Shown here in pieces: positions 4,641-29,319 of a stretch of 64,000 nt of DNA. A program made the position numbers and the translations under genes. Under the pieces are notes generated by a model, which ran no database searches, was not told the DNA's origin, and saw only the letters and a list, made by a program, of their open reading frames with translations. Location of the stretch: NCBI GenBank assembly GCA_958295745.1, contig OY282370.1:1095990-1159989 (forward strand), given 5' to 3'. The first letter of the stretch is position 1. Every line of letters begins with the position of its first letter. This DNA comes from an uncultured Acidimicrobiia bacterium. GTDB lineage: Bacteria > Actinomycetota > Acidimicrobiia > Spongiisociales > Spongiisociaceae.

Positions 4641-6092
4641 ATGCCTTCCCGCCTGTCCAAAGGAGGCCTGTTGCTCCTGGCCGGCGCGGGCCTGGCGGCG
4701 TCGATCGCCCTGGGCGCCTGCCGCCAGGAACCGAACGGCAGCCCTACACCTGACGACGCCCCCGCTTCTGCTCCCACAACGGCGCCGTCCGCAACCGTTT
4801 TGCCGGCGGCCGCCGCCCTCCCGACGACGACCACCACCCCACCGACAACCGTTGCACCCACGACCACCACCCTTCCGGCGGCCGCCACCATCCCACCGAC
4901 AACCTCTGCGCCGGCGGCCACCACCCCGCCCACAACCGTTGCGCCCACGACCACCACCCCGCCAACGACCACCCTTCCGGCGGCCACCGCCGCCGCCCGG
5001 TCGGACACCGCCGCTTCATCCACCCCGCCCGTCGAGAAGGAACCCCGCTCCTTCACCATCGCCGCCACCGGCGACCTGCTCATCCACGGACCGGTCGCCG
5101 ACCGGGCCCGCACCGCGGACGGCTGGAACTTCACCCCGATGTTCTCGATGGTCGCCCCCCGCCTGCGCTCCGCCGACCTGGCCGTATGCCATGTGGAATC
5201 GCCGATGTCGCCCGACAACACCGGGCTCTCCGGCTACCCGCGCTTCCTGGTTCCCAACCAGCTGGCCGAGGCGATCCGCGAGGCGGGCTACGACACCTGC
5301 TCGCTGGCCTCCAACCACTCCGCCGACTGGGGCGCCGATGGGGTGGCGGGCACGATCGAGGCGCTCGACCGCGCCTGGGTGGCCCACTCGGGAATGGCCC
5401 GCTCCCCTCCCGAGCAGAAGCGGATCAACCTACTGGAGGTGAAAGGCGCCTGGGTGGCCCACCTGTCCTATACGTACGGCTTGAACACGGGGCCCCTGCC
5501 CGCCGAGCGGTCCTACCTCGCCAACCTCGTCGACGAGGCGGCGATCCTCGGCGAAGCCCGCCGGGCCAGGACCGCGGGGGCGGGATTCGTCATCCTGTCG
5601 CTGCACTGGGGCGCCGAATACAGGCGGCTCCCCACCCGCTACCAGACCGGCCTCGGTGCCCGGCTCCTGTCCTCCCCCGACATCGACCTCATCCCCGGCC
5701 ATCACGCCCATGTGGTGCAGCCCGTGGTGGAGATCGACGGTGAATACCTCGTGTACGGGCTGGGCAACTTCCTGTCCAACCAGTCCAACCGCAGGTGCCC
5801 AGGGTGTCCGCCGGGCATCCAGGACGGGGTGATCCTGCACCTCACCGTCACCGAGGACCGCACCTCCGGCAGATGGCGCGTGAGCGCGGTCTCGCACACC
5901 CCCACCCGGGTGGATCTGGCGACCTTCCGGATCGTCGTTGTTATCGACCCCGCGGACGGATACGACACCGATGAGATGGCGGCGTCGGCGAGGCGGACCG
6001 CCTCCGCCCTCGGCGCTCTGGGAACGGCAACGCCGATCCACATATGGCCCGAGCACCGCATCGACAGCCGCTGGCTCTACGGCAAAAGGTGA
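4641..6092 (+). CDS. CapA-family (PGA_cap) metallophosphatase lipoprotein
   Basis: 483 residues. Signal sequence ends in the lipobox LGAC with Cys27 as the lipidated residue, so the mature protein should be anchored on the outer face of the membrane. A low-complexity linker rich in Pro, Thr and Ala (repeated PTT/TTT, about residues 35-130) spans the envelope. The CapA/PGA_cap fold follows, with GDLLIHG, HVES, SNHSADWG, LHWGAEY, GHHAH and GNFLSNQ, the metal-binding signature of the family linked to poly-gamma-glutamate or capsule. No capB/capC partners lie nearby, so the substrate is unknown. The start is set at the ATG that begins the lipoprotein signal; open frame exists upstream. Its 3' end overlaps the convergent DUF4276 gene by 16 bp. 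Confidence 0.85.
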   Translation: MPSRLSKGGLLLLAGAGLAASIALGACRQEPNGSPTPDDAPASAPTTAPSATVLPAAAALPTTTTTPPTTVAPTTTTLPAAATIPPTTSAPAATTPPTTVAPTTTTPPTTTLPAATAAARSDTAASSTPPVEKEPRSFTIAATGDLLIHGPVADRARTADGWNFTPMFSMVAPRLRSADLAVCHVESPMSPDNTGLSGYPRFLVPNQLAEAIREAGYDTCSLASNHSADWGADGVAGTIEALDRAWVAHSGMARSPPEQKRINLLEVKGAWVAHLSYTYGLNTGPLPAERSYLANLVDEAAILGEARRARTAGAGFVILSLHWGAEYRRLPTRYQTGLGARLLSSPDIDLIPGHHAHVVQPVVEIDGEYLVYGLGNFLSNQSNRRCPGCPPGIQDGVILHLTVTEDRTSGRWRVSAVSHTPTRVDLATFRIVVVIDPADGYDTDEMAASARRTASALGALGTATPIHIWPEHRIDSRWLYGKR

Positions 6093-6670
6093 TCTAGCTG
6101 TTCAATAAATCGATTGGCGTAGAAGGAAGCTTTTCGGACCTTATTTGGATCTATCTTCGATAGCAGTTTAAAGCTATGTGAACCCTTATTATATCGGCCT
6201 TTACTGGTATCTTTAGTTGCCTGTTCAAGCTTGTTTATTATATCCTTTTTAGGTATTCGTTCAACATCCTGATTTTGAGGTATCACCTTTTCTCGATACC
6301 CTTGACCATAATAGTCAGCTAGCCCTTTTTTGTCGGCCAGAAACCAGGACTCCATTATCTGGACCATCATATGACACTGCTCATCAGAGGCATCCTCGGG
6401 TCTTTCCCATCCATCCCTGCCCTTTAGATGTTGCCAAGGTCTATTATGTTCAAGGACCTCCTCTTCAGAATCCACAAGTAGCAGAGCTACTTCCTTCTTT
6501 CCATGAGAAGTCTCGAATTTGTCATAAGCTTCCTTACGGCTACCACAGGCAATTATTTTCGGCATCCTTCCTGAAAACCCCGCCCTTTCTATGAACGCCT
6601 GAAAGCCTTTGCGGCAATCCGTTCTGGGCTTCCCTTTACCGCCACCTTCAACATATATCTTAACGCTCAC
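6077..6670 (-). CDS. DUF4276 family protein, TOPRIM-like, partner of the adjacent ATPase
   Basis: 197 residues, matching DUF4276 proteins by eye: VEGGGKG near the N terminus (Glu8), LLLVDSEEEV (Asp67, Glu69) and MESWFLAD. A Glu followed by an acidic D-x-E pair is the pattern of TOPRIM nuclease/primase folds, which is inference here. The gene overlaps the upstream ATPase by 4 bp (ATGA), so the two are co-translated. Such ATPase plus TOPRIM-like pairs include known anti-phage systems (PARIS, OLD/Gabija). Base composition is clearly AT-richer than both flanks, and the codons end in A/T, indicating transfer. The last codons run into the 3' end of capA. Confidence 0.75.
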   Translation of the reverse strand: MSVKIYVEGGGKGKPRTDCRKGFQAFIERAGFSGRMPKIIACGSRKEAYDKFETSHGKKEVALLLVDSEEEVLEHNRPWQHLKGRDGWERPEDASDEQCHMMVQIMESWFLADKKGLADYYGQGYREKVIPQNQDVERIPKKDIINKLEQATKDTSKGRYNKGSHSFKLLSKIDPNKVRKASFYANRFIEQLDHLLP

Positions 6671-7893
6671 CAGCGGTTTCCTCCGAGCTCACCGCTAGTC
6701 CAGAGATCTCCAAGGCGGTATTTCTCCAGCCATGGTTTTAGTTGCCTTTTATTCAGCCTATACAAGCTTGTAACCATTTTTGGCTTCTCACATATTACAA
6801 TTGATTCTGGCGCTTCTGTAAGGGCATCAACCAATATCTCTGAATGAGTAGTCACAATTATTTGACTATTTTTTGATGCTTCTATAAGTAGCTCACCCAA
6901 TCCCGGAATGATATCGGGGTGTAAACCTGTTTCTGGTTCCTCTATACAGATAACTGGAGGAGGATCAGGGTTACAAAGAACAGTCAACAAACAGAGATAC
7001 CGCAGAGTACCATCAGAAAGCCTACTAGATGGTATAGGAAAATCCAACCCTTTTTCATGAAATTGAATTTGTACGGTACCGTCTCTCAGGTGAGGGACTA
7101 TATCATCAACCAACGGATAGAAGGACTTTATGTGTTCCATTATTTTTTTCTTGATAGGTGGACGGGTAAACAGATTATTCAACACTAGACCAAAATTTGA
7201 AGCATCCTCCAATAAGAAATCCTGTATCTGGTCTGTTGCCTGAGGAGATCTGATCGATCCAGTATTGGATACGTCCCACTCGCGATAAAATCTAATATTT
7301 TTGAATCTATCTCCCAGGTAAGTCAGCTCCGGATAAGTATCTGGATCACGACGCTGTGATAGAATTGATTTTTCAAGGCTCACCTCTTCTCTTTGCAAAT
7401 ATCGTTTGTACACTCTTTGTTGAGATAGATTGTCCTTTTCGGTCTCCTCTTTTTCTTGGACATTGAGTACAGGATTGCCGTTCTGAAAGCTATAATACAT
7501 GTAGGGTTCAAGATATCCTGGTTGGGGTTTTTCTTCCTCAACCGCTTCGTCCACGAGTTCAAACCTTTGTCCAGATTCCCGAAAGGACAGCCGGTATCTG
7601 AGAGGTATTCTCCCAGGTTGTGAGTTTTCGGTTGTAACTTCTATGGTAGCTATGTTAAAGGCTTCATGTCCTTTCCAAATCCATTCTCGTGAACCTCCAC
7701 CTAATCGAATGGGATCAAGAAGGTCTCGCGGCGCAGCCGTAAGAAGGGACAATGCCTCGATGAGATTTGATTTCCCTGAAGCATTCGGGCCGATCAGGAC
7801 ATTGAGGGGCTGAAGTTCGAATCTTGGGGTAAGAGGACCGTAGGAAAGGAGGTTCTGCAAACGGATTGTTCGGATGAATCTCCTGCCATCCAT
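6667..7893 (-). CDS. RecF/OLD-like AAA (ABC-type) ATPase, candidate defence ATPase
   Basis: 408 residues with a full ABC-type ATPase set: Walker A GPNASGKS at 35-42, a middle region with coiled-coil-like charged stretches, the signature-like SSRLSDGTLRYL, Walker B VICIEEPETGLHP and the H-loop TTHS. This is the AAA_21 / RecF-SMC-like group found beside TOPRIM-type effectors. It is the first gene of a two-gene unit with the DUF4276 gene (4-bp overlap). AT-rich, A/T-ending codons contrast sharply with the flanking genes. In known systems of this type the ATPase senses an invader trigger and the TOPRIM partner acts as the toxic nuclease; that role is inferred, not shown. Confidence 0.8.
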   Translation of the reverse strand: MDGRRFIRTIRLQNLLSYGPLTPRFELQPLNVLIGPNASGKSNLIEALSLLTAAPRDLLDPIRLGGGSREWIWKGHEAFNIATIEVTTENSQPGRIPLRYRLSFRESGQRFELVDEAVEEEKPQPGYLEPYMYYSFQNGNPVLNVQEKEETEKDNLSQQRVYKRYLQREEVSLEKSILSQRRDPDTYPELTYLGDRFKNIRFYREWDVSNTGSIRSPQATDQIQDFLLEDASNFGLVLNNLFTRPPIKKKIMEHIKSFYPLVDDIVPHLRDGTVQIQFHEKGLDFPIPSSRLSDGTLRYLCLLTVLCNPDPPPVICIEEPETGLHPDIIPGLGELLIEASKNSQIIVTTHSEILVDALTEAPESIVICEKPKMVTSLYRLNKRQLKPWLEKYRLGDLWTSGELGGNRW

Positions 7894-14434: not shown

Positions 14435-15652
14435 ATGATGGATCCCACAGGGATCGGGGTGTTCGTGGGTGTGGACATCGCCAAAGAAGAACATTTCTGC
14501 CAAGCGATAGGCGCTGGAGGAGCCGAGCTGTTCGCCCGGGCGGTGGGCAACAACGAGGCAGACCTGGAAGGAATGATCGACCAGGCCGAGGTGTCGGGGC
14601 GGGTGGTGCTGGTGGTCGACACCACCAGCTCGGGTGCTCATCTGCTGCTGGCAGCGGCTGCCCGCCGGCGGATACCCGTGGCGTATGTGAGCGGTCTCCA
14701 GATGCGCCGAGCGGCGGAACTGTACGCGGGTTCGGCCAAGACCGACCCCCTGGACGCGTGGGTGCTGGCGGACTTCGCCCGCCGCAACGCCGATCGTCTG
14801 GTATGGGTCGAGGTAACCGACGAAGTGTTGATCCGGATGCGGGTCCTGTCGGGCCGCGATGAGGACCTGGCAGCCGACTCGACTCGGACGATCAACCGTC
14901 TTCGGGACGCGATGGTGTCTGTTTCCCCTGGTCTGGAGCGTGTTCTGGGTTCCAAACTAGTCCAGAGGGGCGTCCGTGAGCTGCTGGTGCGCTGGCCTGT
15001 GCCCACAGATCTGCGAGCAGCGGGTAAGACACGGATAAGAAACTTGTTGAAAAAGTATTATTCCAACAAGCCGCACAAGGCGGTTGAGCTGACAGACCGG
15101 ATCTGGGCGGCGCTCGGAGCTCAGACCCTCACCCTGGCGGGCGAAGCCACCTGGGGGGAGGTCATCACCGACCTGGCCAGCACCCTGGAGGGGATATACA
15201 CCAAACGCGCCCGCCTGTCCGCGGCTATCGAGGAGGCCTTCACCGCTCACCCTTTAGCCGAGATATTGATATCGGTCCCAGGGATCGGCGTCCGGACCGG
15301 CGCCCGTATCCTGACCGAGATCGGTGACCCACACCGGTTCGCCAACGGATCCCGCCTAGCGTCCTACGCCGGCCTAGCCCCGACCATCCGCCGATCCGGC
15401 CGAACCCAAAACACCACCAGACGCAACCCCGGAGGGAACCACCGACTCAAAAACGCCATGTACTGGACCGCGTTCTCAGCCTCCCAACACGACCCAGCCG
15501 CCCGGGCCTACTACCAACGCAAACGAACCGAAGGCAAACGCCACGCCACCGCCGTCACCCACGTCGCCCGCCGCCGATGCGACCTCATACTCGCCGTACT
15601 CAAAAACCAAACCCTCTACAACCCACCCGAACCAGCCCCCGAACCCGTTTGA
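14435..15652 (+). CDS. IS110-family transposase (DEDD recombinase)
   Basis: 405 residues, full length for the family. N-terminal RuvC-like DEDD domain: VGVDIAKEEH, DTTSSGAHLL and AKTDPLDAWVLADFAR carry the acidic residues. C-terminal Transposase_20 domain: ILISVPGIGVRTGARILTEIG, ASYAGLAP and RRSGRTQN, the last with the candidate catalytic Ser. The frame is intact, so the element may be active. SD GGAAGGAG lies 7-8 nt before ATGATG at 14435. From about base 15340 the codons end almost only in C or A, unlike the first half of the gene. Confidence 0.93.
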   Translation: MMDPTGIGVFVGVDIAKEEHFCQAIGAGGAELFARAVGNNEADLEGMIDQAEVSGRVVLVVDTTSSGAHLLLAAAARRRIPVAYVSGLQMRRAAELYAGSAKTDPLDAWVLADFARRNADRLVWVEVTDEVLIRMRVLSGRDEDLAADSTRTINRLRDAMVSVSPGLERVLGSKLVQRGVRELLVRWPVPTDLRAAGKTRIRNLLKKYYSNKPHKAVELTDRIWAALGAQTLTLAGEATWGEVITDLASTLEGIYTKRARLSAAIEEAFTAHPLAEILISVPGIGVRTGARILTEIGDPHRFANGSRLASYAGLAPTIRRSGRTQNTTRRNPGGNHRLKNAMYWTAFSASQHDPAARAYYQRKRTEGKRHATAVTHVARRRCDLILAVLKNQTLYNPPEPAPEPV

Positions 15653-15992
15653 CAAACCGACAGGAACACGCCCCCGCCGCCACCATCCACCGTCTTTCGG
15701 GCTGCCGGGGGCGCGTTCGCCCGGGCCTGCCCGTTGTGTCTCGGCACAGCTAGGTCGGCCGCCCCTGCCCTTGGGGTCGTCCTTTCCCCTGCCGGAGTCG
15801 GCGTCCCGGGGCGGGGCGGCCTCTGCGATCGCAGCATCCGGACGGCTGCGATGTCTGTACCTATATCTATATCACAGGACTGCGACACGGCCAATACCCT
15901 TGCGGCGCGCACTGGGGGATTTTTTTCGCGATCCGGGACTGGTGTCCGCCGACCGGAAGGATTCGGTTCAGCGCCCCGGACCGGGAAGGAAC

Positions 15993-16997
15993 TCAGCGGC
16001 CGGAGGGGGTTCGGCGGGGATCGGGGTTGTTCAGGGCGGTCGGGACCGGGCGTCCGAAGAGGCCGGCCGCCACCGCCTCGGCCACTTGCAGCGCCGCCTT
16101 GTCCTGGGCTTCGACGGTCGAGGCGCCCAGGTGGGGGGTGAGCACCACCTGCGGCAGCTCCACCAGGGGGCCGCCCGACAGGGGCTCCTCGGCGTAGACG
16201 TCCAGGGCGGCGCCGGCTACCTGCCCGGACCGGACCGCTTCGGCGAGGGCGGCTTCGTCGATTATCCCCCCTCGGGAGGCGTTGACGATCCGCACCCCCG
16301 GTTTGGCCTTGGCGAAGGCCTCGCCGTCCAGCAGGTTCTCCGTTTCCGGGGTCCTGGGCAGATGGAGGGAGATGAAATCCGAACGCGCCAGCAGATCGTC
16401 CAGGGCCGACAGCTCGGCCCCCGCGTTCCGGGCCTGCTCGGCGGTGATGTAGGGGTCGTAGGCCAGCACCCGCATGTCGAAGGCCGAGGCCCGCGCCGCC
16501 ACCAGGGCGCCGATCCTCCCCAGCCCTACCAGGCCCAGGGTCTTGCCATGGAGCTCCACGCCCTTGAAGGCGGCCCGGTTCCAGGCTCCGGACCGCATAG
16601 AGGCGTCGGCCGCCGGGATGTTGCGGGCCTGGGAAAGCATCAGCGCGAAGGCGTGCTCCGCCGCCGAGACGCTGTTGGCGAAGGGGGTGTTGGCCGCCAG
16701 CACCCCCAGCCGGGCGGCGGCCTCGAGGTCGATGTTGTCCACCCCCACCCCGGCCCGGCCCACCACCCGCAGGCGGGGGGCGGCCTCCAGCAGTTCCATA
16801 TCCACCCGGGTGCCGCTGCGGACGATCAGCCCCTCGGCCTCCGGCAGGATCTCCAGCAGCTCGGCCCTGGACAGGCCGGCCGCTTCCACCACCTCACAGG
16901 TCTCCCGCAGGTACTCGGCGCAACCCGCCGCCAGCGCCTCGGCGATCACCACTACCGGAAGTCCGTCCGACTCCATTGCCACACCTTTCACGATCAT
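15993..16997 (-). CDS. D-2-hydroxyacid dehydrogenase, short phosphoglycerate dehydrogenase type
   Basis: 334 residues. NAD-binding motif GLVGLGRIGALVA with a downstream acidic residue in LAYDPYI, the Arg in NASRGGIIDE, Glu in YAEEPL and the catalytic His in LTPHLGAST. VGRAGVGVDNIDLEAA and TPFANSVSAAEHAFALML are typical of 3-phosphoglycerate dehydrogenase. Actinobacterial SerA is usually about 525 residues with an ASB and ACT domain; both are missing here, so serine feedback through ACT is absent. It could be SerA or another 2-hydroxyacid dehydrogenase. Divergent from the helicase fusion gene across 130 bp. Confidence 0.8.
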   Translation of the reverse strand: MIVKGVAMESDGLPVVVIAEALAAGCAEYLRETCEVVEAAGLSRAELLEILPEAEGLIVRSGTRVDMELLEAAPRLRVVGRAGVGVDNIDLEAAARLGVLAANTPFANSVSAAEHAFALMLSQARNIPAADASMRSGAWNRAAFKGVELHGKTLGLVGLGRIGALVAARASAFDMRVLAYDPYITAEQARNAGAELSALDDLLARSDFISLHLPRTPETENLLDGEAFAKAKPGVRIVNASRGGIIDEAALAEAVRSGQVAGAALDVYAEEPLSGGPLVELPQVVLTPHLGASTVEAQDKAALQVAEAVAAGLFGRPVPTALNNPDPRRTPSGR

Positions 16998-17127: not shown

Positions 17128-20100
17128 GTGACCGCCCCGCCCGGAGCGGCCCTGCCCGGAACGGCGCCCGAACGGCCGGACACCGGACCGGTGGACCAGT
17201 TCGTCGTCTTCGACCTGGAGACCGACGGGATAAAGGGGGGCATCATCGAGATCGGCGCGGTGCTCTGCTCCGGCGGCCGGGTTCTGGACGAGTTCGAGAG
17301 CCTGGTGCGGCCCGTACACGGCCTGGCGGAGGGGACCACCCTCCTCACCGGCCTCTCGGACGCCGACCTGGCGGCCTCTCCCCCTCCCGCCGAGGTCCTG
17401 ACCCGTTTTCGAGACTTCGCCGGCGGGCGGCCGCTGGCGGCGCACAACGGGTTCGGCTTCGACTTTCCCAAGCTGGACGAGGCCTGCCGGGCGGCGGGGC
17501 TGGATCCGCTCCCCGGAACCCGCCTCGACACCCTGGAGCTGGCCCATGCGGTCTTTCCCCGGGCCGGTGAGGGGATGATCCGGGATTCGCTCGGACGGCG
17601 CCCGCCGCCCGGACGGCGCCTGGATATGCTGGCCGACCGGCTCGGCTCGGAGTACACCGCCCTCCACCGGGCCTTGGGGGACGCCCGGCTCACCCACCGG
17701 GTATTGCTGGCCATGCTGGAACGCATGGAAGCGGACGAACCGGCCCGCCTCCTCCAGCGGTGGATACTGGCCCGGGGCGCCCATCCGTGGGCCGGTTTCT
17801 TCGAGGCGCCCTCCGAACGGCCCGATCTGGCCGAGGCGGTGCCCCTGACGACGGTGGCGCCACGGGGCCAGCCCACCGGGCAGTTCGACGTGTCGGCCCT
17901 CGAGGCGGCCTTCCGGGCGGGCGGGGCGTTGATGGAGGGCCGGGAGCCGAGGCCGCAGCAGGCGGATATGGCCCGAGCCGCCGCCGAGGGGCTGTCCAGG
18001 GGCGGCAGGTACCTCATCGAGGCCCCCACCGGCACCGGCAAGACCCTGGCCTACCTGGTGCCGGCCATCGAATACGCCCGCTCCTCGGGCCGGACCGTGG
18101 TGATATCGACCAACAGCCGCGTCCTCCAGAACCAGATCCTCTCCACCCTGGAGGAATTGGAGGAAGAGCTGGACCCCTTCGATGCGGCCCTTCTGAAGGG
18201 GCGGAACAACTACCTCAGCCTGGAAGCGCTGGAAGCGGAGCTCGACGAGGACCCGCCCGATCACGACACCGCCCTGGCGCTGGCCGTCATATGCGGCTGG
18301 GCGGCGGAGACCCCCACCGGGGACTGGGAGGATCTTCGCGCGGCGGCCATCCGGCGCCGCCCGAACGGAATCCGCCAGTTCTCCCACCTGAGATGGAAGC
18401 TCCGGGTCGAACACATGACCCGGCAGGCCTACACCCCTCTGGAGGAGCGCGAGTTCTACCGCCGGGCGAGGGAAAGAGTGCGGAACGCCCACGTGGCGGT
18501 CTTCAACCACGCCCTGCTGATCTCCACGGACGAATGGCGGGGCGCCGCCCGGCATGTGATCGTGGACGAGGCCCACCAGCTGGAAGACGCCGCCACCGGC
18601 GCCCTGTCGCAGGAGGTCGGCAGCCGCCGGCTCGAGGATCTGTGCGACGCCGTCAGCCCTTCCTCCGGGCAGGGAACCGTCCGGCGGCTGAGCAGGGCCG
18701 TCGCCTGGCAGGCTCTCGGCCAAACCGCCGGGGCGGAGCTCCGGGCGGCCCTCGACGACCTGCAGGCCTCCGCCCGGAGGATCAGGGAACGCCTCGGCGC
18801 CTTCGGCGGCGCGCTGGTGGAGTACGTGCGGGACCGCACCGGGGCGCAGCAGGCCGACATCGAGAAGTACGGGGTTTCCCATCACCTCCGGCGGGGCGTC
18901 GACACCGGCCGGCCCGCCTACCGGGAGGTGGCCCGGCGGGCCAAGGACCTCGAGACCGAGCTGGCGGGGATGGCCGCCGCCTTCAACCGCATCTCCGTAC
19001 CGGCCGGGCTGCGGGGCCGCTACCGGCGCCGAAGGCTGGAGTACGAGGTCGGGCGGCTGGGGCGGGAGGCCCGGGAAGCGGCCGATCTGATCGACAAGGT
19101 GGTCTGGGCCGAGGACCAGGAAATCTGGATCAACATCGCCGACCTCAGGCTCAGGGAAAACGCCTGGTCCTGGAAGCTGCGCCGGGCGCCGGTCTCGGTG
19201 GCGCCCCGGCTCGGCGAGCTCTGGGAAGACCAGGAGGCGGCCTTGCTCACCTCGGCCACCCTCAGCGTGGGGAACGATTTCAGCTTCCTGATAGGCGCCC
19301 TCGGCCTGGGCGGCGCCGTCACGAAGAAGCTGCCGACGCCCTTCGACCGCCTCACCCGCAACCATCTGGTGCTCCTCACCGACTACCTGCCGGCGCCCCG
19401 CGGCGGCCTGATGGACGACTTCACCAACGCCGAAGCATCCGAGATACCGCGGCTGTTCGTGCTGACCCGGGGCCGGGGAATGGCCCTGATGACCGCCCGG
19501 GCCCGCCTGGAGAAGGTGCGCGACCATGCCCGCCCCTACATGGAGGACCTGGGTCTGGACCTGCTCGCCCAGGGAGACGAGTCCTCGCCCGCCCTAGTGG
19601 AGCGGATGAGGGCGGAACCCTCTTCCAGCCTGCTGGCCCTCCGCTCGTTCTGGGAAGGGATCGACATACCGGGCGAGGCCCTGAGCCTGCTGGTGATCGA
19701 GAAGATCCCCTTCGATTCGCCCGCCGATCCGGTGGTGAGCACGCGCATGGGTGCGCTGGAGCTGCGGGGGAAGGACCCCTTCGCCGGGTATCTGATCCCC
19801 CGGGCCGTCCTTCGCTTCGCCCAGGGCGTGGGCCGGCTGATCAGAACCAACCGGGACGTAGGCGTCACGGCGGTGCTGGACAACCGCCTGCGGCGGCCCG
19901 TGCCGTACCGGGACCGGATGCGGCGCAGCCTCACCGGGCCGCCCTCCTTCGCGGAGGCCGACACCTCCGAGGAGGCCTACACGCGGATCGCCGGCCACCT
20001 GGGGATCGACCTCGACGAACACCTCCGGGAACGGATAGCCGCCATTCCCGCCGCCGATCGATGGTCGCGGTTCCTCGACACGGAAGGCCTGCATCTGGAC

Positions 20101-22197
20101 GGGGAGGACCCGGCCGACCCGGGGCGGATCGAGGAGGTCCTGGAGAAGTGCCGGGAGGAGCTCGGCTTCGCCGAGTGGCGCCCCGGCCAGCTGGAAACGA
20201 TGGTCCGGTTCGTGAGCGGCCGGGACGTGCTGGCGGTGCTGCCCACCGGGTCAGGCAAATCCCTCACCTTCCAGCTGCCGGCGCTGCTCTGCCCGGGCGT
20301 GACCCTGGTGATCTCGCCCCTCAAAGCCCTCATGAACGACCAGGTGGAGGGCCTGCGGGCGCGGGGGGTCAGGTCGGTGGCCGCCGTCCACAGCGGCATA
20401 CCGCAGGGAGAGCAGCACGAGATACTCAAAGGCGCCCGGGAGGGCCGCTACAAGCTGCTCTACCTGAGCCCCGAACGGCTGTGGAATCCGGCGTTCGTCC
20501 GGATGCTGGCCGGCGTCGAGATCGGGCGGATCGCCGTGGACGAGGCGCACTGCATCTCGCAGTGGGGGCACTCCTTCCGGCCGGAGTATTCGGCGATCCC
20601 CGAGGCCCTGCTGCGGGCGGCGGGCCGGGACCGCCGCCTGCCGGTACTGGCCGTGACCGCCACCGCCGCGCCCAAGGTGCGGGGCGAGATCGAGGAGCTG
20701 CTGCACCTGGACATCGGCGGGCAGGCCATCGCCATGACGCCCGACCGGCCCGAGATCCGCTACTACGTCGAACGCTGCCGCAACTTCGAGGACCGCCAGG
20801 TCCGGGTCGTCCGAGTTCTCGAGTCCTTCCGCAACCTGAGCTCCATCGTGTACGTCCCCAAGCGCGCCGACACGGTCCGCCTGGCCGGGCTGATCCGCAC
20901 CGCCGGGCACACCGTCCGCCCGTACCACGGCGCCATGCCCGACGAGGAACGGCTGCACGTGGAGGACGCCTTCCGCCACGGCGAGATCGACGTGGTGGTG
21001 GCCACCAAGGCCTTCGGCATGGGGATCGACAAGCCCGACATCGCCCTGATCCTCCACCTCGAGATGCCCGCCTCGATAGAGGAATACGTGCAGGAGACCG
21101 GGCGGGCGGCGAGAGGGGCGGCGGACGGGAAGGGTCCGGAGACCGGTGCAGCGGTGCTGCTGACGACCCCCCGCGACTGCCGCATCCACGAGTACTTCAT
21201 CGAGAACTCGGCGCCCGACCTGACGGAGGTGGAGGCCGTATGGAGGAGGCTGCGGACCGGAACCAACTACCTGCCGCCCGAGTCCGACTCCGAAGACGGG
21301 GCCGATTCGGGAAGGGAGAAAACGGCGCTGGCGGTGCATTATCTGGCGCAGAGCGGAGCGGTCGAGCGGCGCGAGGACGTGGTCTGGAGGGGCAGGGTCT
21401 CGATCATGGAAGACACGCGGGCGAGGATCGAAGATCTCGCCGCCGAAGACCCGGCCCTGGCGGAACGGGCCGCGGCGCTGGTGGACCTGTCCGATATATC
21501 GGGGGATGACCTCTATCACGCCGCCGTCTGGGCGGGGCGGCTGGGGCGCGCAGAGCACGAGGTGGGCGCCGACCTGCTGGATCTGAACCGCCGCGGCATC
21601 CTGGGTTTCGTAGCCTTCGAGTACGCCCTGACCCTCGATCGGGCACCCTATGCGGAACCGGACTGGGCCCGGATCGAAGCCGCCGCCGAAGAACAGCAGG
21701 CGGCCGCCCGGGAACGCTCGGAACAGGCCGTAGAATTTGCCCGGGATCGGAGCAGATGCCGCCGCAAGGCGATGCTCGAATACCTCGGTGTTTCGGACCT
21801 TCCCGACCGTTGCCATGGGTGCGACCGGTGCCTGGAACTGCCGAGGCCCTGGAAGGAGAGCGTGATCACCCGCGACCTGATGGTGGAGGCCATTCCGGTG
21901 CGCCAGATCGTCCTGAGGCTGGCCGCCGACACCGCCTACAGGGAAATCTCGGAGAGCAACTTCATCCGCACGCTGGTCGGCGAGGCCGGCGGCCCGCATC
22001 CGCTGCACGCCAAGGAGAGATCCCATCCCTGTTTCGGGCTGCTTTCCCTATTGGGGAAGGCCGGTCTGAAAGAGCTCATCGAAGACCTGGTCGAAGAGGG
22101 GTTGATATCCCGCGAGGAGAGGCGGTACGAGGGAAGGGTCTATTCGAGGCTGGCCGAGACCCCGAGGGGGCGGGCCGAGCTTTCTAGAATGACGTGA
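17128..22197 (+). CDS. Exonuclease-DinG-RecQ triple fusion helicase
   Basis: 1689 residues with three enzyme units in one frame. Residues about 25-195: DEDDh 3'-5' exonuclease of the DnaQ/epsilon type (FDLETDG with D29/E31, AHNGFGFDF, HRALGD). Residues about 265-960: DinG-like XPD-family helicase with Walker A APTGTGKT at 299-306 and DEAH at 480-483; the FeS-cluster cysteines of E. coli DinG are not present, as in Bacillus DinG. Residues about 1005-1690: RecQ helicase with LPTGSGKS from 1038, DEAHCISQWGHSFRPEY from 1138, GMGIDKPDI, a Cys4 zinc site (C1544, C1562, C1565, C1568) and a winged-helix end. DinG and RecQ are normally separate proteins. It abuts a UvrD-like helicase gene with no gap. 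Start GTG at 17128 is tentative. Confidence 0.88.
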   Translation: MTAPPGAALPGTAPERPDTGPVDQFVVFDLETDGIKGGIIEIGAVLCSGGRVLDEFESLVRPVHGLAEGTTLLTGLSDADLAASPPPAEVLTRFRDFAGGRPLAAHNGFGFDFPKLDEACRAAGLDPLPGTRLDTLELAHAVFPRAGEGMIRDSLGRRPPPGRRLDMLADRLGSEYTALHRALGDARLTHRVLLAMLERMEADEPARLLQRWILARGAHPWAGFFEAPSERPDLAEAVPLTTVAPRGQPTGQFDVSALEAAFRAGGALMEGREPRPQQADMARAAAEGLSRGGRYLIEAPTGTGKTLAYLVPAIEYARSSGRTVVISTNSRVLQNQILSTLEELEEELDPFDAALLKGRNNYLSLEALEAELDEDPPDHDTALALAVICGWAAETPTGDWEDLRAAAIRRRPNGIRQFSHLRWKLRVEHMTRQAYTPLEEREFYRRARERVRNAHVAVFNHALLISTDEWRGAARHVIVDEAHQLEDAATGALSQEVGSRRLEDLCDAVSPSSGQGTVRRLSRAVAWQALGQTAGAELRAALDDLQASARRIRERLGAFGGALVEYVRDRTGAQQADIEKYGVSHHLRRGVDTGRPAYREVARRAKDLETELAGMAAAFNRISVPAGLRGRYRRRRLEYEVGRLGREAREAADLIDKVVWAEDQEIWINIADLRLRENAWSWKLRRAPVSVAPRLGELWEDQEAALLTSATLSVGNDFSFLIGALGLGGAVTKKLPTPFDRLTRNHLVLLTDYLPAPRGGLMDDFTNAEASEIPRLFVLTRGRGMALMTARARLEKVRDHARPYMEDLGLDLLAQGDESSPALVERMRAEPSSSLLALRSFWEGIDIPGEALSLLVIEKIPFDSPADPVVSTRMGALELRGKDPFAGYLIPRAVLRFAQGVGRLIRTNRDVGVTAVLDNRLRRPVPYRDRMRRSLTGPPSFAEADTSEEAYTRIAGHLGIDLDEHLRERIAAIPAADRWSRFLDTEGLHLDGEDPADPGRIEEVLEKCREELGFAEWRPGQLETMVRFVSGRDVLAVLPTGSGKSLTFQLPALLCPGVTLVISPLKALMNDQVEGLRARGVRSVAAVHSGIPQGEQHEILKGAREGRYKLLYLSPERLWNPAFVRMLAGVEIGRIAVDEAHCISQWGHSFRPEYSAIPEALLRAAGRDRRLPVLAVTATAAPKVRGEIEELLHLDIGGQAIAMTPDRPEIRYYVERCRNFEDRQVRVVRVLESFRNLSSIVYVPKRADTVRLAGLIRTAGHTVRPYHGAMPDEERLHVEDAFRHGEIDVVVATKAFGMGIDKPDIALILHLEMPASIEEYVQETGRAARGAADGKGPETGAAVLLTTPRDCRIHEYFIENSAPDLTEVEAVWRRLRTGTNYLPPESDSEDGADSGREKTALAVHYLAQSGAVERREDVVWRGRVSIMEDTRARIEDLAAEDPALAERAAALVDLSDISGDDLYHAAVWAGRLGRAEHEVGADLLDLNRRGILGFVAFEYALTLDRAPYAEPDWARIEAAAEEQQAAARERSEQAVEFARDRSRCRRKAMLEYLGVSDLPDRCHGCDRCLELPRPWKESVITRDLMVEAIPVRQIVLRLAADTAYREISESNFIRTLVGEAGGPHPLHAKERSHPCFGLLSLLGKAGLKELIEDLVEEGLISREERRYEGRVYSRLAETPRGRAELSRMT

Positions 22198-23976
22198 ATG
22201 GCCTACCTCCTGCCGGAGAACATCCCCACCCGCAACGACATCCCCAACCCCCTGAACCTGCTCGGGGGGCAGTTGCGGGATCTGCTGCCCGACGAGGTGA
22301 CCGTCTGGCTGAAAAACGCCGAAGGAGACAGCAGGGAGGATCGCTATCTGCTGGTGCTGGATCCGGCCTGCGGCATCCTGCTGCTGGACGCCCCCCGGAA
22401 AAGCGAAGGCAGGCGGGAAGCGCAGCCGGAAGCGGTGCGTCGGCGGGTGTCCGAGCTTCAGGACCGCGCCCGAGGCCGGCGCCTGGACGGTCTGCCCGTG
22501 GCCTGGGCGGCGGCCCTGCCCGAACTCGATGCGGCCGAGGCCGAGCAACAGGGATGGGCTGCGGCCGGCCCGATCCTGACCTATGAAGACTTCCGTTCCG
22601 GCCGGCATTTGCGGGCCGCCTTCGGACGGGTGCTGGGGGGTCGGGCCGCCCCCCTGGACGAGGCAGAAGTGCGGACGGCCCGCGTGGTGGTGAACCCGAC
22701 GATCCTCATAGACGACCCCGGAGAGCAGGGCCGGCTGGCCTTCCGTCCTCCCGAGCTGTCCCCCGAAGAGACGCTTCGGGCGCTGGACCGCCGACAGGAA
22801 AGAGCCGCCGAGCATATGGGGTGGGGTTACCGGGTGATCCGCGGGGTGGCGGGAAGCGGCAAGACCCTGGTGCTGGTGCATAGGGCCCGGCATCTGGCCC
22901 GTCTCTTCCCGCAGTGGCGCATCCTGCTGCTCTGTTACAACCGGGTTCTTTCGCTTGAATTGAAGCGCCAGATCGGCGATAACGGGCAGGTGGAGGTGCA
23001 GACTCTGGACGGCCTCGCCTATCAGCTCGCCGACCCGGGGGCAAGGAAGGCCAAGGGGAGCGACAGGTTCGAAATACGGCGTCGATCCGCCGTCCGGGCA
23101 GCCAAAAAGCTCCACGACGGCGCCCGGTTCGACGCCGTACTGGTGGATGAGGCTCAGGATCTCGGCCCCACGGGCATGGACCTGGCCTGGGAGATGCTGA
23201 AACAGAAACGGCGGAGATCGATGTCAGGACGGCCGGCGCCGGGAAAGCCGCTGCCAGGAGGGCGCATATCAGGACGGCTCATGTCGGAACCCCGGAACGA
23301 CGGCAACTTCGTGATGGCCATGGACCCCGATCAGGACATCTTCGTCAGCCGCCGGCGCGAGATGAACTGGAATCCGCCCGGGATGACCGCCCGGGGCCGC
23401 ACCACGATCTTCAGGCTCAACTACCGGAACACCCGCCAGACCCTGGAGCTGGCCTGGGGGTTCCTGTCGGAGCTTTCCCCCCGCAGGCCCGACGCGGTCG
23501 TCCCCGAGGCCGCCCGGGAAGGCCCGGCGCCGAAGGTGCTCGCCTGCGCGGATCCGGATGCAGAAGCCCGAACCATCGCCGCCGAAGCGAAGAAGCTGCT
23601 CGACGCGGACGTGGAACCCGGCAGCATCCTGGTGATGTTCGGCCTGTCGAAGCAGCGGATCGGGGAGCTCTGCTACTCCTTCCGGCGGGCCGGGGTCCCC
23701 CATCACTTCGCCCAAGCCACGGCCGAGGCGCGTGACCAGGTGATATCAGCGCGCGGCAAGGTGATAATCTCGAACCTGTGGGGGCTCAAAGGCCTCGAGT
23801 TCAGCCGGGTGTTCATCGGCGGGATCAACCACATCCGAATGCCGGAGGAACAGGACGACCCCGCCGCCCTCGGGCACCTGCTCTACGTGTGCATGACCAG
23901 GGCCATCGACCAGCTGACCATCACCTATTCAGGCGAAGGGCCGGCGGGCGGCGCCCTGCAGAACGCCCTCCGTTGA
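22198..23976 (+). CDS. UvrD-like superfamily 1 helicase with degenerate NERD-like N terminus
   Basis: 592 residues. The first ~120 residues resemble a NERD (nuclease-related) domain (LPDEVTVWLKNAEGD, YLLVLDPACGILLLDAPRK), but the usual E-x-K active site reads D-A-P-R-K, so nuclease activity is doubtful. The helicase part has Walker A GVAGSGKT near 216, LLCYNRVLSLELK, Walker B VLVDEAQDLG near 317, DPDQDIF, LNYRNTRQT, LKGLEFSRVF and the motif VI YVCMTRA. An Arg/Gly/Pro-rich insertion lies between Walker B and DPDQDIF. The ATG follows the stop of the triple-fusion gene with no bases between, so the two are almost surely one operon and probably act together on DNA ends, forks or invading DNA. Confidence 0.85.
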   Translation: MAYLLPENIPTRNDIPNPLNLLGGQLRDLLPDEVTVWLKNAEGDSREDRYLLVLDPACGILLLDAPRKSEGRREAQPEAVRRRVSELQDRARGRRLDGLPVAWAAALPELDAAEAEQQGWAAAGPILTYEDFRSGRHLRAAFGRVLGGRAAPLDEAEVRTARVVVNPTILIDDPGEQGRLAFRPPELSPEETLRALDRRQERAAEHMGWGYRVIRGVAGSGKTLVLVHRARHLARLFPQWRILLLCYNRVLSLELKRQIGDNGQVEVQTLDGLAYQLADPGARKAKGSDRFEIRRRSAVRAAKKLHDGARFDAVLVDEAQDLGPTGMDLAWEMLKQKRRRSMSGRPAPGKPLPGGRISGRLMSEPRNDGNFVMAMDPDQDIFVSRRREMNWNPPGMTARGRTTIFRLNYRNTRQTLELAWGFLSELSPRRPDAVVPEAAREGPAPKVLACADPDAEARTIAAEAKKLLDADVEPGSILVMFGLSKQRIGELCYSFRRAGVPHHFAQATAEARDQVISARGKVIISNLWGLKGLEFSRVFIGGINHIRMPEEQDDPAALGHLLYVCMTRAIDQLTITYSGEGPAGGALQNALR

Positions 23977-25473: not shown

Positions 25474-26277
25474 ATGAAAGCGCTCACCCCCGAACAGATC
25501 GGCGCCTGGGAACGGGACGGGTTCTTGGTGGTGCGCGATTTCGTGGACGCCGGGGAGCTGGCCGCCGTCCAGTCCATCATCTCCGGGCTGGCTGAGCAGT
25601 ATCCGCCCGACCCTGCGGTGCATATAGACGTCGATCCGGCCTTGGCGGACCGCACCGACCTGCCCGCCTCCCGTACCTTCCGGGCGTTGATCCACGCCGC
25701 CCACGCCAGCCCGGAGCTGCGGGAGGTGTACACCCTGCGCTCCAAGACGCTCGATGTGGTGGAGGACCTGCTGGGGCCGGACATCGTGTTCTACACCGAC
25801 CAGACCTTCCTGAAGCCGCCCGGGGGCAGCCCGGCCCCGCCCCATCAGGACAACGCCTACTGGGAGCCGTACTGGTCAGGCAAGGGCAAGCTGTCGGTAT
25901 GGCTGGCTCTGGACGATTCGACCATCGAGCGGGGATGCACCAACTTCGTTCCCGGCAGCCACCGGTCGGTGCTGGAACACGAGCGGGACTTCTCCAAGGA
26001 CGCCCTGTTCGGGGGGGCGGTGGAGGGCCTGACGCCGGACAAGCTCGATGCGGTGCCGGTGGAGCTGAAGGCGGGGGACGCCTGCATCCACCACGGGGAG
26101 ATCATCCATTTCAGCGGGCCGAACGTGTCCGACCAGCCCCGCCGCGGCCATGTGGCGGTCTACTTCAGCGGCCGCTGCACCTACACCGACCAGGTGAGCA
26201 AGTTCTTTCCCGACAACTTCATCCCCGCCCGCGGCCACACCTACCCGGGTTGCGTAGGCGGCGAGCGGCTGCCCTGA
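25474..26277 (+). CDS. Phytanoyl-CoA dioxygenase (PhyH) family oxygenase
   Basis: 267 residues of the Fe(II)/2-oxoglutarate PhyH fold. The N terminus QIGAWERDGFLVVRDFVD is typical. The iron ligands are the H-x-D in PPHQDNAYWEP and the distal His in the CIHHGEIIHFSGPN region, with Arg in QPRRGHVAVYFSG as 2-oxoglutarate contact. Reaction: oxidative hydroxylation of an unknown substrate. Such genes are very numerous in marine and sponge-associated actinobacteria, but substrates are rarely known. Alone on the plus strand; its end overlaps the decayed helicase fragment. Confidence 0.88.
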   Translation: MKALTPEQIGAWERDGFLVVRDFVDAGELAAVQSIISGLAEQYPPDPAVHIDVDPALADRTDLPASRTFRALIHAAHASPELREVYTLRSKTLDVVEDLLGPDIVFYTDQTFLKPPGGSPAPPHQDNAYWEPYWSGKGKLSVWLALDDSTIERGCTNFVPGSHRSVLEHERDFSKDALFGGAVEGLTPDKLDAVPVELKAGDACIHHGEIIHFSGPNVSDQPRRGHVAVYFSGRCTYTDQVSKFFPDNFIPARGHTYPGCVGGERLP

Positions 26278-26810
26278 CCACAGTCACACGGCCCACGGGC
26301 TCGGCCTTCGTCGCGCGCCCGGCGTATCTCCAGACGGGACATCGTTGTTTCTCGCTGGTCACGCTCTGTGAACATCGCATTGCCGACCTGTTGCACGACC
26401 ATCTCCCGGAGGGTCGCCGCTTCGGGATCGAAGTCGTCCTGATCGACACGTATGTACCGCCATGGGTCACCTGTTGCCGTGCTCGCCCTTCGGCACCAGC
26501 TCCACATAGCGGTGTCCTTTTGTTCGATACCCTCCCAGACGCGCCCCTTCGTCTCGATGATCCAGTTCACCTCTCCCTCTTCGGTTTCCTGGACCGCCAC
26601 CCAATCCGGGTAGTAGGAGTCGATGGCGCCGCTCGGCTTCAGGTAGTCGACGCGGAACGACGATCCTGAGCTGCCCGGCTCGGTCGTGCCCAAGGCCGCG
26701 AAGCGCAGGACATCATCGGCGCGGTCCAGGAACTCTGCGAATCGGCGCTCGAACGGGTTGTAGGTGGCCTCGAAGTTGAAGATGGTTTTCTGCGCTTTCA
26801 GTGGTGGGAG
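26241..26810 (-). pseudogene. C-terminal remnant of a type III restriction-like (Res) helicase
   Basis: The minus-strand frame from about 26810 reads KAQKTIFNFEATYNPFERRF, RADDVLRFAALGTTEPGSSG, FRVDYLKPSGAIDSYYPDW, NWIIETKGRVWEGIEQKD and GDPWRYIRVDQDDF. This matches the nuclease end (D..E-x-K) of type III restriction Res / DEAD helicase proteins, which are ~900-1000 residues. Everything upstream, including both helicase domains, is gone: the frame starts within the 3' end of the DUF433 gene and has no start codon there. The last ~40 codons run into the PhyH gene and look non-native. A dead fragment of a lost restriction system. Confidence 0.7.
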
Positions 26811-27274
26811 GTCGCGCCGCCATTTGCCAGAACAGCCTTTACCTGCTCATAGTCCAACCCGTGACTCCTACAGAAGTCTTGGGGGGTGATCCCGCCCTTC
26901 ATATGATCAAACAGTATCTCAATAGGAAACTCGGTTCCTTTGAATACCGGCCGGCCGTCCCGTCCTGGTTCCGCTACTGAGCACTCGGTCAAGTCGACTA
27001 CATGTACCGGAGGATCGTTCTGTAAGTATTGGAGAGCGACTCTGATATTGTGTTTGCCGACCTGGTAGCTTTCCTCGAACTCATCTACATCGTGACCGCT
27101 TGCTGTCCAGTCGGCCAGGATATCCACCGGCATCCGCATGTCGAGAAACGATGGCCGGCCCGAAACCCTGTCCGGTGCGTATTCGACGACCGGGCATCCC
27201 CGCCAGTCGATCATTTTCAAAACCATTGGTGTGCTTGCAACCATAGGCGCACCCTCGTCCGTGCTGGTGTCCAT
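26798..27274 (-). CDS. Tandem DUF433 protein (antitoxin-like)
   Basis: 158 residues with two DUF433 modules: the first around RVSGRPSFLDMRMPVDILAD, the second around GRDGRPVFKGTEFPIEILFD followed by the helix pair GITPQDFCRSHGLDYEQVKA. Single DUF433 proteins are often VapB-like antitoxins beside PIN or DUF5615 toxins. No toxin gene is seen on either side; the next gene downstream is a restriction-helicase fragment. The ATG could also be the one 10 codons later. Less GC-rich than the main genome. Confidence 0.75.
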   Translation of the reverse strand: MDTSTDEGAPMVASTPMVLKMIDWRGCPVVEYAPDRVSGRPSFLDMRMPVDILADWTASGHDVDEFEESYQVGKHNIRVALQYLQNDPPVHVVDLTECSVAEPGRDGRPVFKGTEFPIEILFDHMKGGITPQDFCRSHGLDYEQVKAVLANGGATSHH

Positions 27275-27322
27275 TATAGGAGGCCGCGCCGACAGCCGAC
27301 TCTACGTTGCCGACCCTGCTCA

Positions 27323-28315
27323 TCACGCATGCGGCCGACGGCGGGCCCGGGCGCGGAACGGGATTCCGATCAGCGGCAGGGACTGCACCAGGCCCGACAG
27401 GGAAAAACGCACCGGCGCCATCGGGGAAAGCGCTATGAACAGTCCTACCATTAGAACATTGCGAGAAAAGGAGATGTTCATCAGCCAGCCGGACCCGAGA
27501 TGGAAGAAGATCAGCGCAATCCCGAAGGGTCGATGCAGATGCGGCCTGAATACAGCGAGGAGGGCAAAGAACTGTACGTAAACGGTAACGATGAGCATGA
27601 ACTGCGCTAAGTATTCTTGCTGAGCAAAAAAGGGCAACAACGGGGGTATGTTGACCGTGTCTTCTGTGGCGCGATCCAGTAAGGTCCTGACCATGCCGTC
27701 TGATGTGAGTATATCTAAATTACTGCGCCAAATCTTCCAGAAGCCAGACAGTGTGTAAGTGATCAGTATGAGACTTTGTGTGAACCAGAGTACTGCTATA
27801 CATGCCATCACGTTCTTGCGCGGCATTCTCCCCGATCTTCTTTCGGTCTTATCTATTGGAGGTAAGAACAACAATGCGAAGCTCACATACAGGATAACAT
27901 GGTTGCCGTGTCCCAGAGAACCATAAGAATTCTGCAAGGTAACGAACAGGAAGAGGTACAAGAATACACCTAGACGCCAGATCAACACTCTTGGAAAGAC
28001 CATAGCCAGAGCTGCGACGGCAACGCTTACTATAGATATAGTCGTTACATGGGCAAGCCATCCTGTACCGGTCAGTTCTGACAACAGGGTAATCGGCCAC
28101 TGAGGATGGGTTGGCGGGCCTCTGGAAGCATTTTGGAATTGCAGTGCGCTGCTGCCGCTCAGTGCTATCGAGTAAACTACGAATAGATAGTAGAACCGCG
28201 TGAGCCAGATGAATCCGTCCGCCGCACGTGAAAAATCTGACGGAGTACGGCGATCACCGTGGTCAAACGACAGCAGTGATTTGCGTGCCAGCTTCACCAA
28301 TCGATACGCGTACAT
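27323..28315 (-). CDS. HTTM-like multi-pass membrane protein
   Basis: 330 residues with about seven to eight membrane segments (FIWLTRFYYLFVVYSIAL, a long stretch around IVSVAVAALAMVFPRVLIWR, VFLYLFLFVTLQN, VMACIAVLWFTQSLILITYT, FMLIVTVYVQFFALLAVF). The motif GHGNHVILYVSFALLFLPP recalls the NH-x-Y stretch of HTTM (vitamin-K-carboxylase-like) proteins. Function unknown. ATG 28315 lies 9 nt past the stop of the upstream gene; an earlier TTG would overlap it by 49 bp. GC is clearly lower than in the flanks, suggesting transfer together with its partner. Confidence 0.6.
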   Translation of the reverse strand: MYAYRLVKLARKSLLSFDHGDRRTPSDFSRAADGFIWLTRFYYLFVVYSIALSGSSALQFQNASRGPPTHPQWPITLLSELTGTGWLAHVTTISIVSVAVAALAMVFPRVLIWRLGVFLYLFLFVTLQNSYGSLGHGNHVILYVSFALLFLPPIDKTERRSGRMPRKNVMACIAVLWFTQSLILITYTLSGFWKIWRSNLDILTSDGMVRTLLDRATEDTVNIPPLLPFFAQQEYLAQFMLIVTVYVQFFALLAVFRPHLHRPFGIALIFFHLGSGWLMNISFSRNVLMVGLFIALSPMAPVRFSLSGLVQSLPLIGIPFRARARRRPHA

Positions 28316-28323
28316 AGGACGGC

Positions 28324-28854
28324 TCACTCGCACAAGTCGATTAGGGAGACACGGCCTTCGCTCGTGCTCCAACAGCCGATGACCTTATTAGGTTGATAGA
28401 ACTCGAATATCATAGCTGTGCCGTCAGCTAGCTCCCTGATATTCTTCTGCACATCACGTAGGTCGATGCCAGCTTTGACGATTATGAATTCGGCGTTATC
28501 TCCCCCGACCAATCGCTTCACAATCGGATTGAGTATCTCTTCTACTACACTGTCGCAGTCTGGATTCCTTACGCAGGCCCTGACTACCGTACCCAGAGCC
28601 TTCAAATCTCTGATATCAGTGTTGGGGATGAGGTATTGAGCGCCGGCCTCCGGAGGAACTCCGTCTATGGAGTAGACAACTAGAGCATTTTCCGTCACGT
28701 GCCAGCTTCGCGGTTCGGCGAACAGCGCCCAAGAATAGAAAGGATGTATCTCCTGATTTTTATCGATGAATGGATTGAGCGGCGTCATAGCTATGTAGAA
28801 CACCAGGAATAAAGGCATCAAATATATGATCATGTGGTAACGGCTCTTGAACAT
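28324..28854 (-). CDS. Single-span membrane protein, partner of the HTTM-like protein
   Basis: 176 residues: one N-terminal membrane segment (YLMPLFLVFYIAMTPL) and a ~150-residue soluble domain, probably outside, with WALFAEPRSWHVTENALVVY and four Cys (two in VRACVRNPDCD, GCWSTS, IDLCE). I do not recognise the family. It lies 9 nt upstream of the HTTM-like gene and shares its lower GC, so the two form a unit. A TAGAAT box ends 8 nt before the ATG, again suggesting a leaderless mRNA. Confidence 0.65.
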   Translation of the reverse strand: MFKSRYHMIIYLMPLFLVFYIAMTPLNPFIDKNQEIHPFYSWALFAEPRSWHVTENALVVYSIDGVPPEAGAQYLIPNTDIRDLKALGTVVRACVRNPDCDSVVEEILNPIVKRLVGGDNAEFIIVKAGIDLRDVQKNIRELADGTAMIFEFYQPNKVIGCWSTSEGRVSLIDLCE

Positions 28855-28930
28855 GGATTACTATTCTAATCCTGAATCCACTGCTCGACTCACTGCTGCG
28901 TCAGCGACCTGCTCGATGCGCCGGCGGCCA

Positions 28931-29319
28931 TCATAGGGGGGCGGGGTCTGCGTCGAGGACGAGGGTGTGGGCGGGTTCCCAGGAGGCCGCCACCCGATCT
29001 CCGGTCCGGAAGGCGGACTCCTCCTCGTGGGACATGCGCTGGCTGACCAGCCGGCCCAGCCCCGGCACGTCCTCGTCCCGGAGCAGCACCCGCCCGGTGT
29101 CGGGTATCTCTCGAAACCGGCGATCATCCGCAGGCTGGTGGTCTTGCCGCACCCGCTCGGCCCCAGCAGCGAGAAGAACTCCCCCTCCCGGATGACGACG
29201 TCGACGTCGTCGACCGCCACCACCTCGCCGAAGCGCTTGGTGATGCCTTCGAGGTAGATCCCGACCTCGGTCGCGGCAACGGCAGCTGAATTATTCGGCG
29301 GGTACTGGGCGGCAAGCAT
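28931..29319 (-). pseudogene. Decayed PotA-like ABC transporter ATPase
   Basis: Starts well: [19 protein letters not shown], then Walker [21 protein letters not shown]. Just after FE the frame shifts; the other frame continues as [20 protein letters not shown] and then jumps straight to [21 protein letters not shown], the C-terminal TOBE end, stopping at 28931. The Q-loop, signature, Walker B and H-loop, roughly 200 residues, are deleted. The ATG directly follows the channel gene stop. No permease or binding protein of this type is nearby. Confidence 0.8.

Follow-up and report, generated by a model that had tools for sequence, protein, structure and literature searches.

A 64,000-nucleotide stretch of the genome of an uncultured Acidimicrobiia bacterium (assembly GCA_958295745.1, contig OY282370.1, positions 1,095,990 to 1,159,989; hereafter, the window) encodes one large protein that joins a DEDDh exonuclease, a DinG-type helicase and a RecQ helicase, followed directly by a gene for a UvrD-type helicase with a NERD-derived N-terminus (hereafter, the partner). 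The triple fusion itself is not new, having been known since 2005 (Omelchenko et al., 2005, PMC1274311); what appears to be new here is the two-gene unit, which is present or absent as a clean block within one genus. The two genes very probably constitute one accessory machine for processing DNA ends and branches, with both proteins acting together on DNA.

The fusion and its partner are conserved as a unit

In 16 distinct Acidimicrobiia loci (the window, L022–L029, L031–L034, L036, L038 and L164) the fusion, or its remains, is followed within 0–165 bp by the NERD-UvrD gene, so that the adjacency first noted in the window recurs in 15 further loci. L030 and L027 are one and the same contig, counted once. 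L022 and L023, from bins G014 and G004, are far closer to the window than to the copies of their genus neighbours and may be mis-binned; they are counted as loci, not as evidence on those two genomes. The fusion is full-length at 13 of the loci, is split in L023 and L031, and lacks the second half of DinG in L034. For L164, which belongs to another family, identity is 42% over the fusion protein and 36% over its partner. Both genes have dN/dS values of 0.17–0.25 (four pairs) and are under purifying selection.

Genus g4, in which the fusion is patchily distributed, captures the unit in its filled and empty states. The spacer between an amidohydrolase gene and an SDR gene (L237–L243) is ~127 bp long and empty in G007, G011 and G014. 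At the same site G013 carries a clean ~7.2-kb block containing the fusion and partner only, G008 and G012 carry a DEAD-box RNA helicase gene in place of the pair, and G009 once more has the pair ahead of the SDR gene. Filled and empty sites together show that the two genes move or go missing together: the fusion and partner are gained or lost as one cassette.

The preliminary description of the window had taken the two genes for a single DNA-processing machine. That they behave as a unit is supported by the 16 adjacent loci, by their joint gain and loss and by congruent trees, in which the main clades are common to both genes and some deeper branches differ. The distance matrices of fusion and partner correlate at r = 0.96 over 120 pairs; because related sequences have a common history anyway, this value speaks for joint inheritance and not for interaction.

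Domain architecture and catalytic residues

The features of the two genes in the window are as follows.

17128..22197, + strand: exonuclease-DinG-RecQ fusion gene, 1689 aa, GTG start; the architecture is also found in relatives and on Deinococcota plasmids
17203..17703, + strand: DEDDh exonuclease domain, residues 26-192; D29, E31, D112, H180 and D185 conserved
17935..19932, + strand: DinG/XPD-type helicase domain, residues 270-935; Walker A and DEAH intact, iron-sulfur (FeS) cysteines absent
20152..21132, + strand: RecQ helicase core, residues 1009-1335
21253..21756, + strand: insertion from RecQ lobe 2 to the zinc site, residues 1376-1543, placed by alignment and a low-confidence model
21757..21831, + strand: RecQ Cys4 zinc site (C1544, C1562, C1565, C1568)
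22054..22158, + strand: C-terminal helix and two strands, residues 1643-1677, putatively winged-helix-like from the model
22198..23976, + strand: partner gene, NERD-derived N-terminus and UvrD-type superfamily 1 (SF1) helicase, 592 aa, ATG start
22198..22692, + strand: NERD-like domain without the catalytic lysine, residues ~1-165
22765..23973, + strand: UvrD-type helicase domains, residues ~190-592; motor motifs conserved

Domains of the fusion were placed by Pfam, NCBIfam and PDB sequence searches. The single frame with its exonuclease, DinG, RecQ and Cys4 zinc site, as originally described, is borne out both by the Pfam matches (RNase_T at residues 26-192, 5e-18; Helicase_C_2 at 776-935, 9e-32; and, in the RecQ part, DEAD at 1019-1183, 2e-38; Helicase_C at 1232-1329, 2e-23; RecQ_Zn_bind at 1518-1569, 8e-9) and by the catalytic residues. 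The zero spacing to the UvrD-type gene was likewise correct: the TGA of the fusion (22195-22197) is followed by the ATG of the next open reading frame (22198-23976) with 0 bp between them. Walker A and DEAH are intact in both the DinG and the RecQ parts of the window fusion, and the key catalytic residues inspected recur in 12 fusions, among them copies from Thermus and Deinococcus with ~30% identity.

The RecQ part has both the RecQ motor motifs and the Cys4 zinc site; it is a RecQ helicase by its motifs, with predicted 3'-5' unwinding. It contains ~160 extra residues (~1376-1543) after helicase lobe 2 and ahead of the zinc site, an estimate based on alignment and on comparison with E. coli RecQ. 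Overall confidence in the structure model of this part is low (pTM 0.43), and we therefore assign no fold to the inserted region. None of the four FeS cysteines of DinG is present in the window or in any Acidimicrobiia copy checked, including the most distant, L164, whereas the Thermus and Deinococcus fusions keep all four. Because these cysteines are gone, the DinG part of the Acidimicrobiia proteins may not be a working helicase.

The partner matches UvrD_C (1e-13) and UvrD-helicase (2e-7) in Pfam, and its motor is UvrD-type, aligning with D. radiodurans UvrD over 361 residues (Z 31.7, rmsd 3.0). Its N-terminus is homologous to the NERD domain (hhalign probability 97%, E = 1.2e-10), as had been suspected; the reading of this domain as a nuclease does not hold up. 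The lysine of the D..ExK motif is gone from all partner copies adjoining a fusion, and also from the copies in L035 and L037, which pair with other helicases; the stand-alone NERD-UvrD proteins of L039, L040, L042 and L043 retain D..ExK. Given the loss of the catalytic lysine, the NERD-like domain of the partner is probably a pseudonuclease. With the DinG FeS cysteines and the NERD lysine both lost, it is not safe to assume a third active helicase or a second nuclease in the pair, and the three active helicase engines once proposed for the pair are unsupported as a necessity.

Relatives of the partner occur in other settings. One lies directly after an MkoA-like SF1 helicase (L035:337-4860) and another directly after a BrxHI/SngC-like helicase with a nuclease-like N-terminus (L037:2491-7283), each possibly another two-gene unit. 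L164 carries a second NERD-UvrD gene (14811-16535), divergent from the fusion, in which a D..ExK-like motif is present.

The fusion on Deinococcota plasmids

We surveyed the spread of the fusion in Actinomycetota genomes and Deinococcota plasmids. Among 396 Actinomycetota genomes sampled, one further fusion was found, truncated by its contig (G473); G176 was found by a class search. The fusion is present on many Thermaceae plasmids (Thermus, Meiothermus) and on one Deinococcus plasmid, and some of these plasmids are finished. A DnaQ-DinG-RecQ fusion had been named on the pTT27 megaplasmid of T. thermophilus HB27 and is absent from strain HB8 (Omelchenko et al., 2005, PMC1274311), which contradicts the preliminary description, where DinG and RecQ were taken to be separate proteins and their fusion to be undescribed. 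In a 2026 transposon sequencing (Tn-seq) study, the recQ of pTT27 is a highly permissive shell gene (PMC13140390); we equate this recQ with the fusion, an identification that the paper itself does not make.

Three conserved genes follow the fusion in Thermaceae (L018, L019, L021, L249, L250, L251), encoding proteins of ~280, 180 and 510 aa; a Pfam search with the HB27 set gave no match above the cut-off. A UvrD-type gene lies 3 bp upstream of the fusion in T. oshimai, near genes for BrxL, tubulin-like and vWA proteins, and a UvrD/PcrA-type gene lies ~107 bp upstream in D. actinosclerus. Set beside the Acidimicrobiia layout, these two show a UvrD-type helicase adjoining the fusion in three different arrangements. 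On T. oshimai pTHEOS01 (L253:16846-26814), the row upstream of the fusion consists of the UvrD-type gene, BrxL, a 677-aa protein, the tubulin-like gene and the vWA gene.

A literature search that covered few subscription journals returned no paper on the fusion and NERD-UvrD pair. Judging by the literature searched, three features appear to be undescribed: the conservation of the two genes as a unit, the lost FeS site and the dead NERD domain.

Genomic neighbourhood

With regard to defence islands, one of the checks proposed at the outset, the picture is mixed: some neighbours are defence genes (DarTG, the second NERD helicase, HEC-01, cas1/cas2), but most are ordinary. PADLOC matched 20 models in 76 flanking proteins and only mad3 and PDC-S01 in 76 control proteins drawn from arbitrary regions of the same genomes, a comparison over few loci. 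DarT-like and DarG genes directly adjoin the pair in L023 (7090-8702). In the window, ~9 kb from the fusion, PADLOC identifies a HEC-01 candidate (6077-7893, - strand; A 2.2e-166, B 2.4e-81), an AAA_21 ATPase and DUF4276 pair; the local GC content is 45%, compared with ~69% in the surrounding sequence. In A. silvanus, cas1/cas2 lie ~6-8 kb from the fusion.

The window also contains an IS110-family transposase gene (14435-15652, + strand) ~1.5 kb upstream of the fusion. At 26241-29319 the GC content is lower, and this region contains a DUF433 gene, a fragment weakly resembling a restriction endonuclease, an ABC ATPase fragment that is 93% identical to a gene of L023, and two frames that have no Pfam match.

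Possible functions of the cassette

On the domains present, the fusion would load at ends, gaps and forks in DNA or at displaced strands, where the RecQ part (3'-5') would open the duplex, the FeS-less DinG module might bind single strands and track along them, and the DEDDh domain would digest exposed 3' ends. The NERD-derived UvrD protein would supply a second 3'-5' motor, with its dead nuclease domain serving as a docking or DNA-binding part.

We tentatively favour attack on foreign replicating or recombining DNA, of phage or plasmid, as the purpose of the cassette, because of its patchiness, its behaviour as a cassette, the occurrence of the fusion on plasmids, the partner switching seen in L035 and L037, and some defence neighbours. 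The anti-invader role raised in the preliminary description, alongside repair, is on this circumstantial support plausible. Several observations weigh against it. Most neighbours across the 16 loci are ordinary metabolic genes, several of the PADLOC models matched in the flanks are generic (WYL, TnpB-like, RNA helicase), and the excess of defence matches over the control is small. Two loci, L028 and L029, have the pair flanked by uvrB on one side and uvrA on the other, both genes recognised by eye. The fusion was not found in viral-contig scans or in a phage search, and the motor families involved are best known from repair.

These known roles, together with the uvrB/uvrA location, are the grounds for the closest alternative, an accessory repair or fork-rescue function for host DNA, in which the pair would act on stalled forks, R-loops and recombination intermediates by resection and unwinding, much like the separate exo-DinG, RecQ and PcrA/UvrD proteins. 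The predominantly metabolic neighbours fit this alternative, and in the 3.3-Mb window genome the fusion is the only DinG found. Moreover, 3' tails at forks are degraded by the exo-DinG of B. subtilis (PMC12525004), which likewise has no FeS cysteines. Against repair, the pair is optional even inside one genus and is exchanged as a cassette, the fusion is carried on plasmids in Thermaceae, where pTT27 recQ is so permissive, and the window genome has two other RecQ-like genes. A repair function is quite possible, and we regard defence as slightly more likely.

A fuller version of the defence proposal is one that we advance with more reserve: the fusion and the NERD-derived UvrD protein might form a new two-gene anti-mobile-element system, in which a single chain carrying a 3'-5' exonuclease and two motors whose ancestral polarities are opposite would work with a pseudonuclease-translocase. 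Different UvrD-type partners would have joined the exo-DinG-RecQ core on at least three occasions (Acidimicrobiia, T. oshimai and D. actinosclerus).

It is improbable that the pair instead serves mobile DNA itself, carried by a plasmid or genomic island for its own recombination, maintenance or transfer. The Deinococcota megaplasmids, the cassette behaviour and the IS110 transposase upstream in the window would suit such a role, but the block inserted in Acidimicrobiia consists of the two genes only, with no integrase, relaxase or replication gene, and the chromosomal copies are under purifying selection. A phage origin was also considered and was rejected, the fusion not having been seen in the viral-contig scans or phage search.

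An artefact of assembly or frameshift that fused normal genes, as draft metagenome assemblies and the three broken frames (L023, L031, L034) might suggest, is effectively refuted by the conservation of the fusion: in the window, as in relatives, the frame is open, the fusion is full-length at the other 13 loci and on finished Thermus, Meiothermus and Deinococcus plasmids, and the fusion-less family members examined (G007 and G008, the two such genomes sampled) show no full stand-alone dinG, only weak partial matches to the DinG C-terminal model, in place of the separate dinG and recQ that an artefact would predict.

What had been a brief remark in 2005 on one Thermus strain now becomes a two-gene unit that is conserved and under selection, in which the fusion has a defined partner and which comes and goes as a block. 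The cassette is small and concrete enough for defence and repair to be tested as competing functions. The pattern also suggests that very different large helicases have recurrently been partnered by UvrD-type proteins whose nuclease domains are dead.

Comparison with known systems

The nearest known protein is the DnaQ-DinG-RecQ fusion of T. thermophilus HB27 (pTT27, TT_RS10770, WP_011174436.1; PMC1274311), which has its three domains in the order seen here and all catalytic motifs in common, at ~30% identity. It differs in keeping the FeS cysteines, in being followed by the three conserved genes, and in having no NERD-UvrD partner. The exo-DinG proteins of Firmicutes (B. subtilis, PMC12525004; S. 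aureus, PDB 8zef) likewise join a DEDDh exonuclease to DinG, and B. subtilis DinG and the window fusion both lack the FeS cysteines; the Firmicutes proteins have no RecQ part and no known pairing with a UvrD-type protein. The partner, for its part, shares its domain order with NERD+UvrD proteins (PADLOC C3a187 and the stand-alone proteins above), and its closest relatives are homologous to these over their full length, but the stand-alone proteins keep the lysine that the window partner has lost.

Among defence systems, Gabija is also a two-gene unit, in which the UvrD-like GajB stands beside a larger nuclease protein, GajA. Its large protein is unrelated, matches of the partner to GajB are weak and local, and the GajA model (OLD-type ATPase-TOPRIM) is not among the PADLOC matches of the flanking proteins. 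ARMADA type II (PMC12458937) likewise uses several helicases, one of them UvrD-type with a nuclease-like N-terminus; its YprA helicase and methyltransferase are absent here. The idea of a multi-motor helicase-nuclease is that of RecBCD, AddAB and AdnAB, whose UvrD-type subunits resemble the partner motor in fold. Unlike those enzymes, the large protein described here has unrelated SF2 motors and a DEDDh nuclease, and the pair is optional rather than core.

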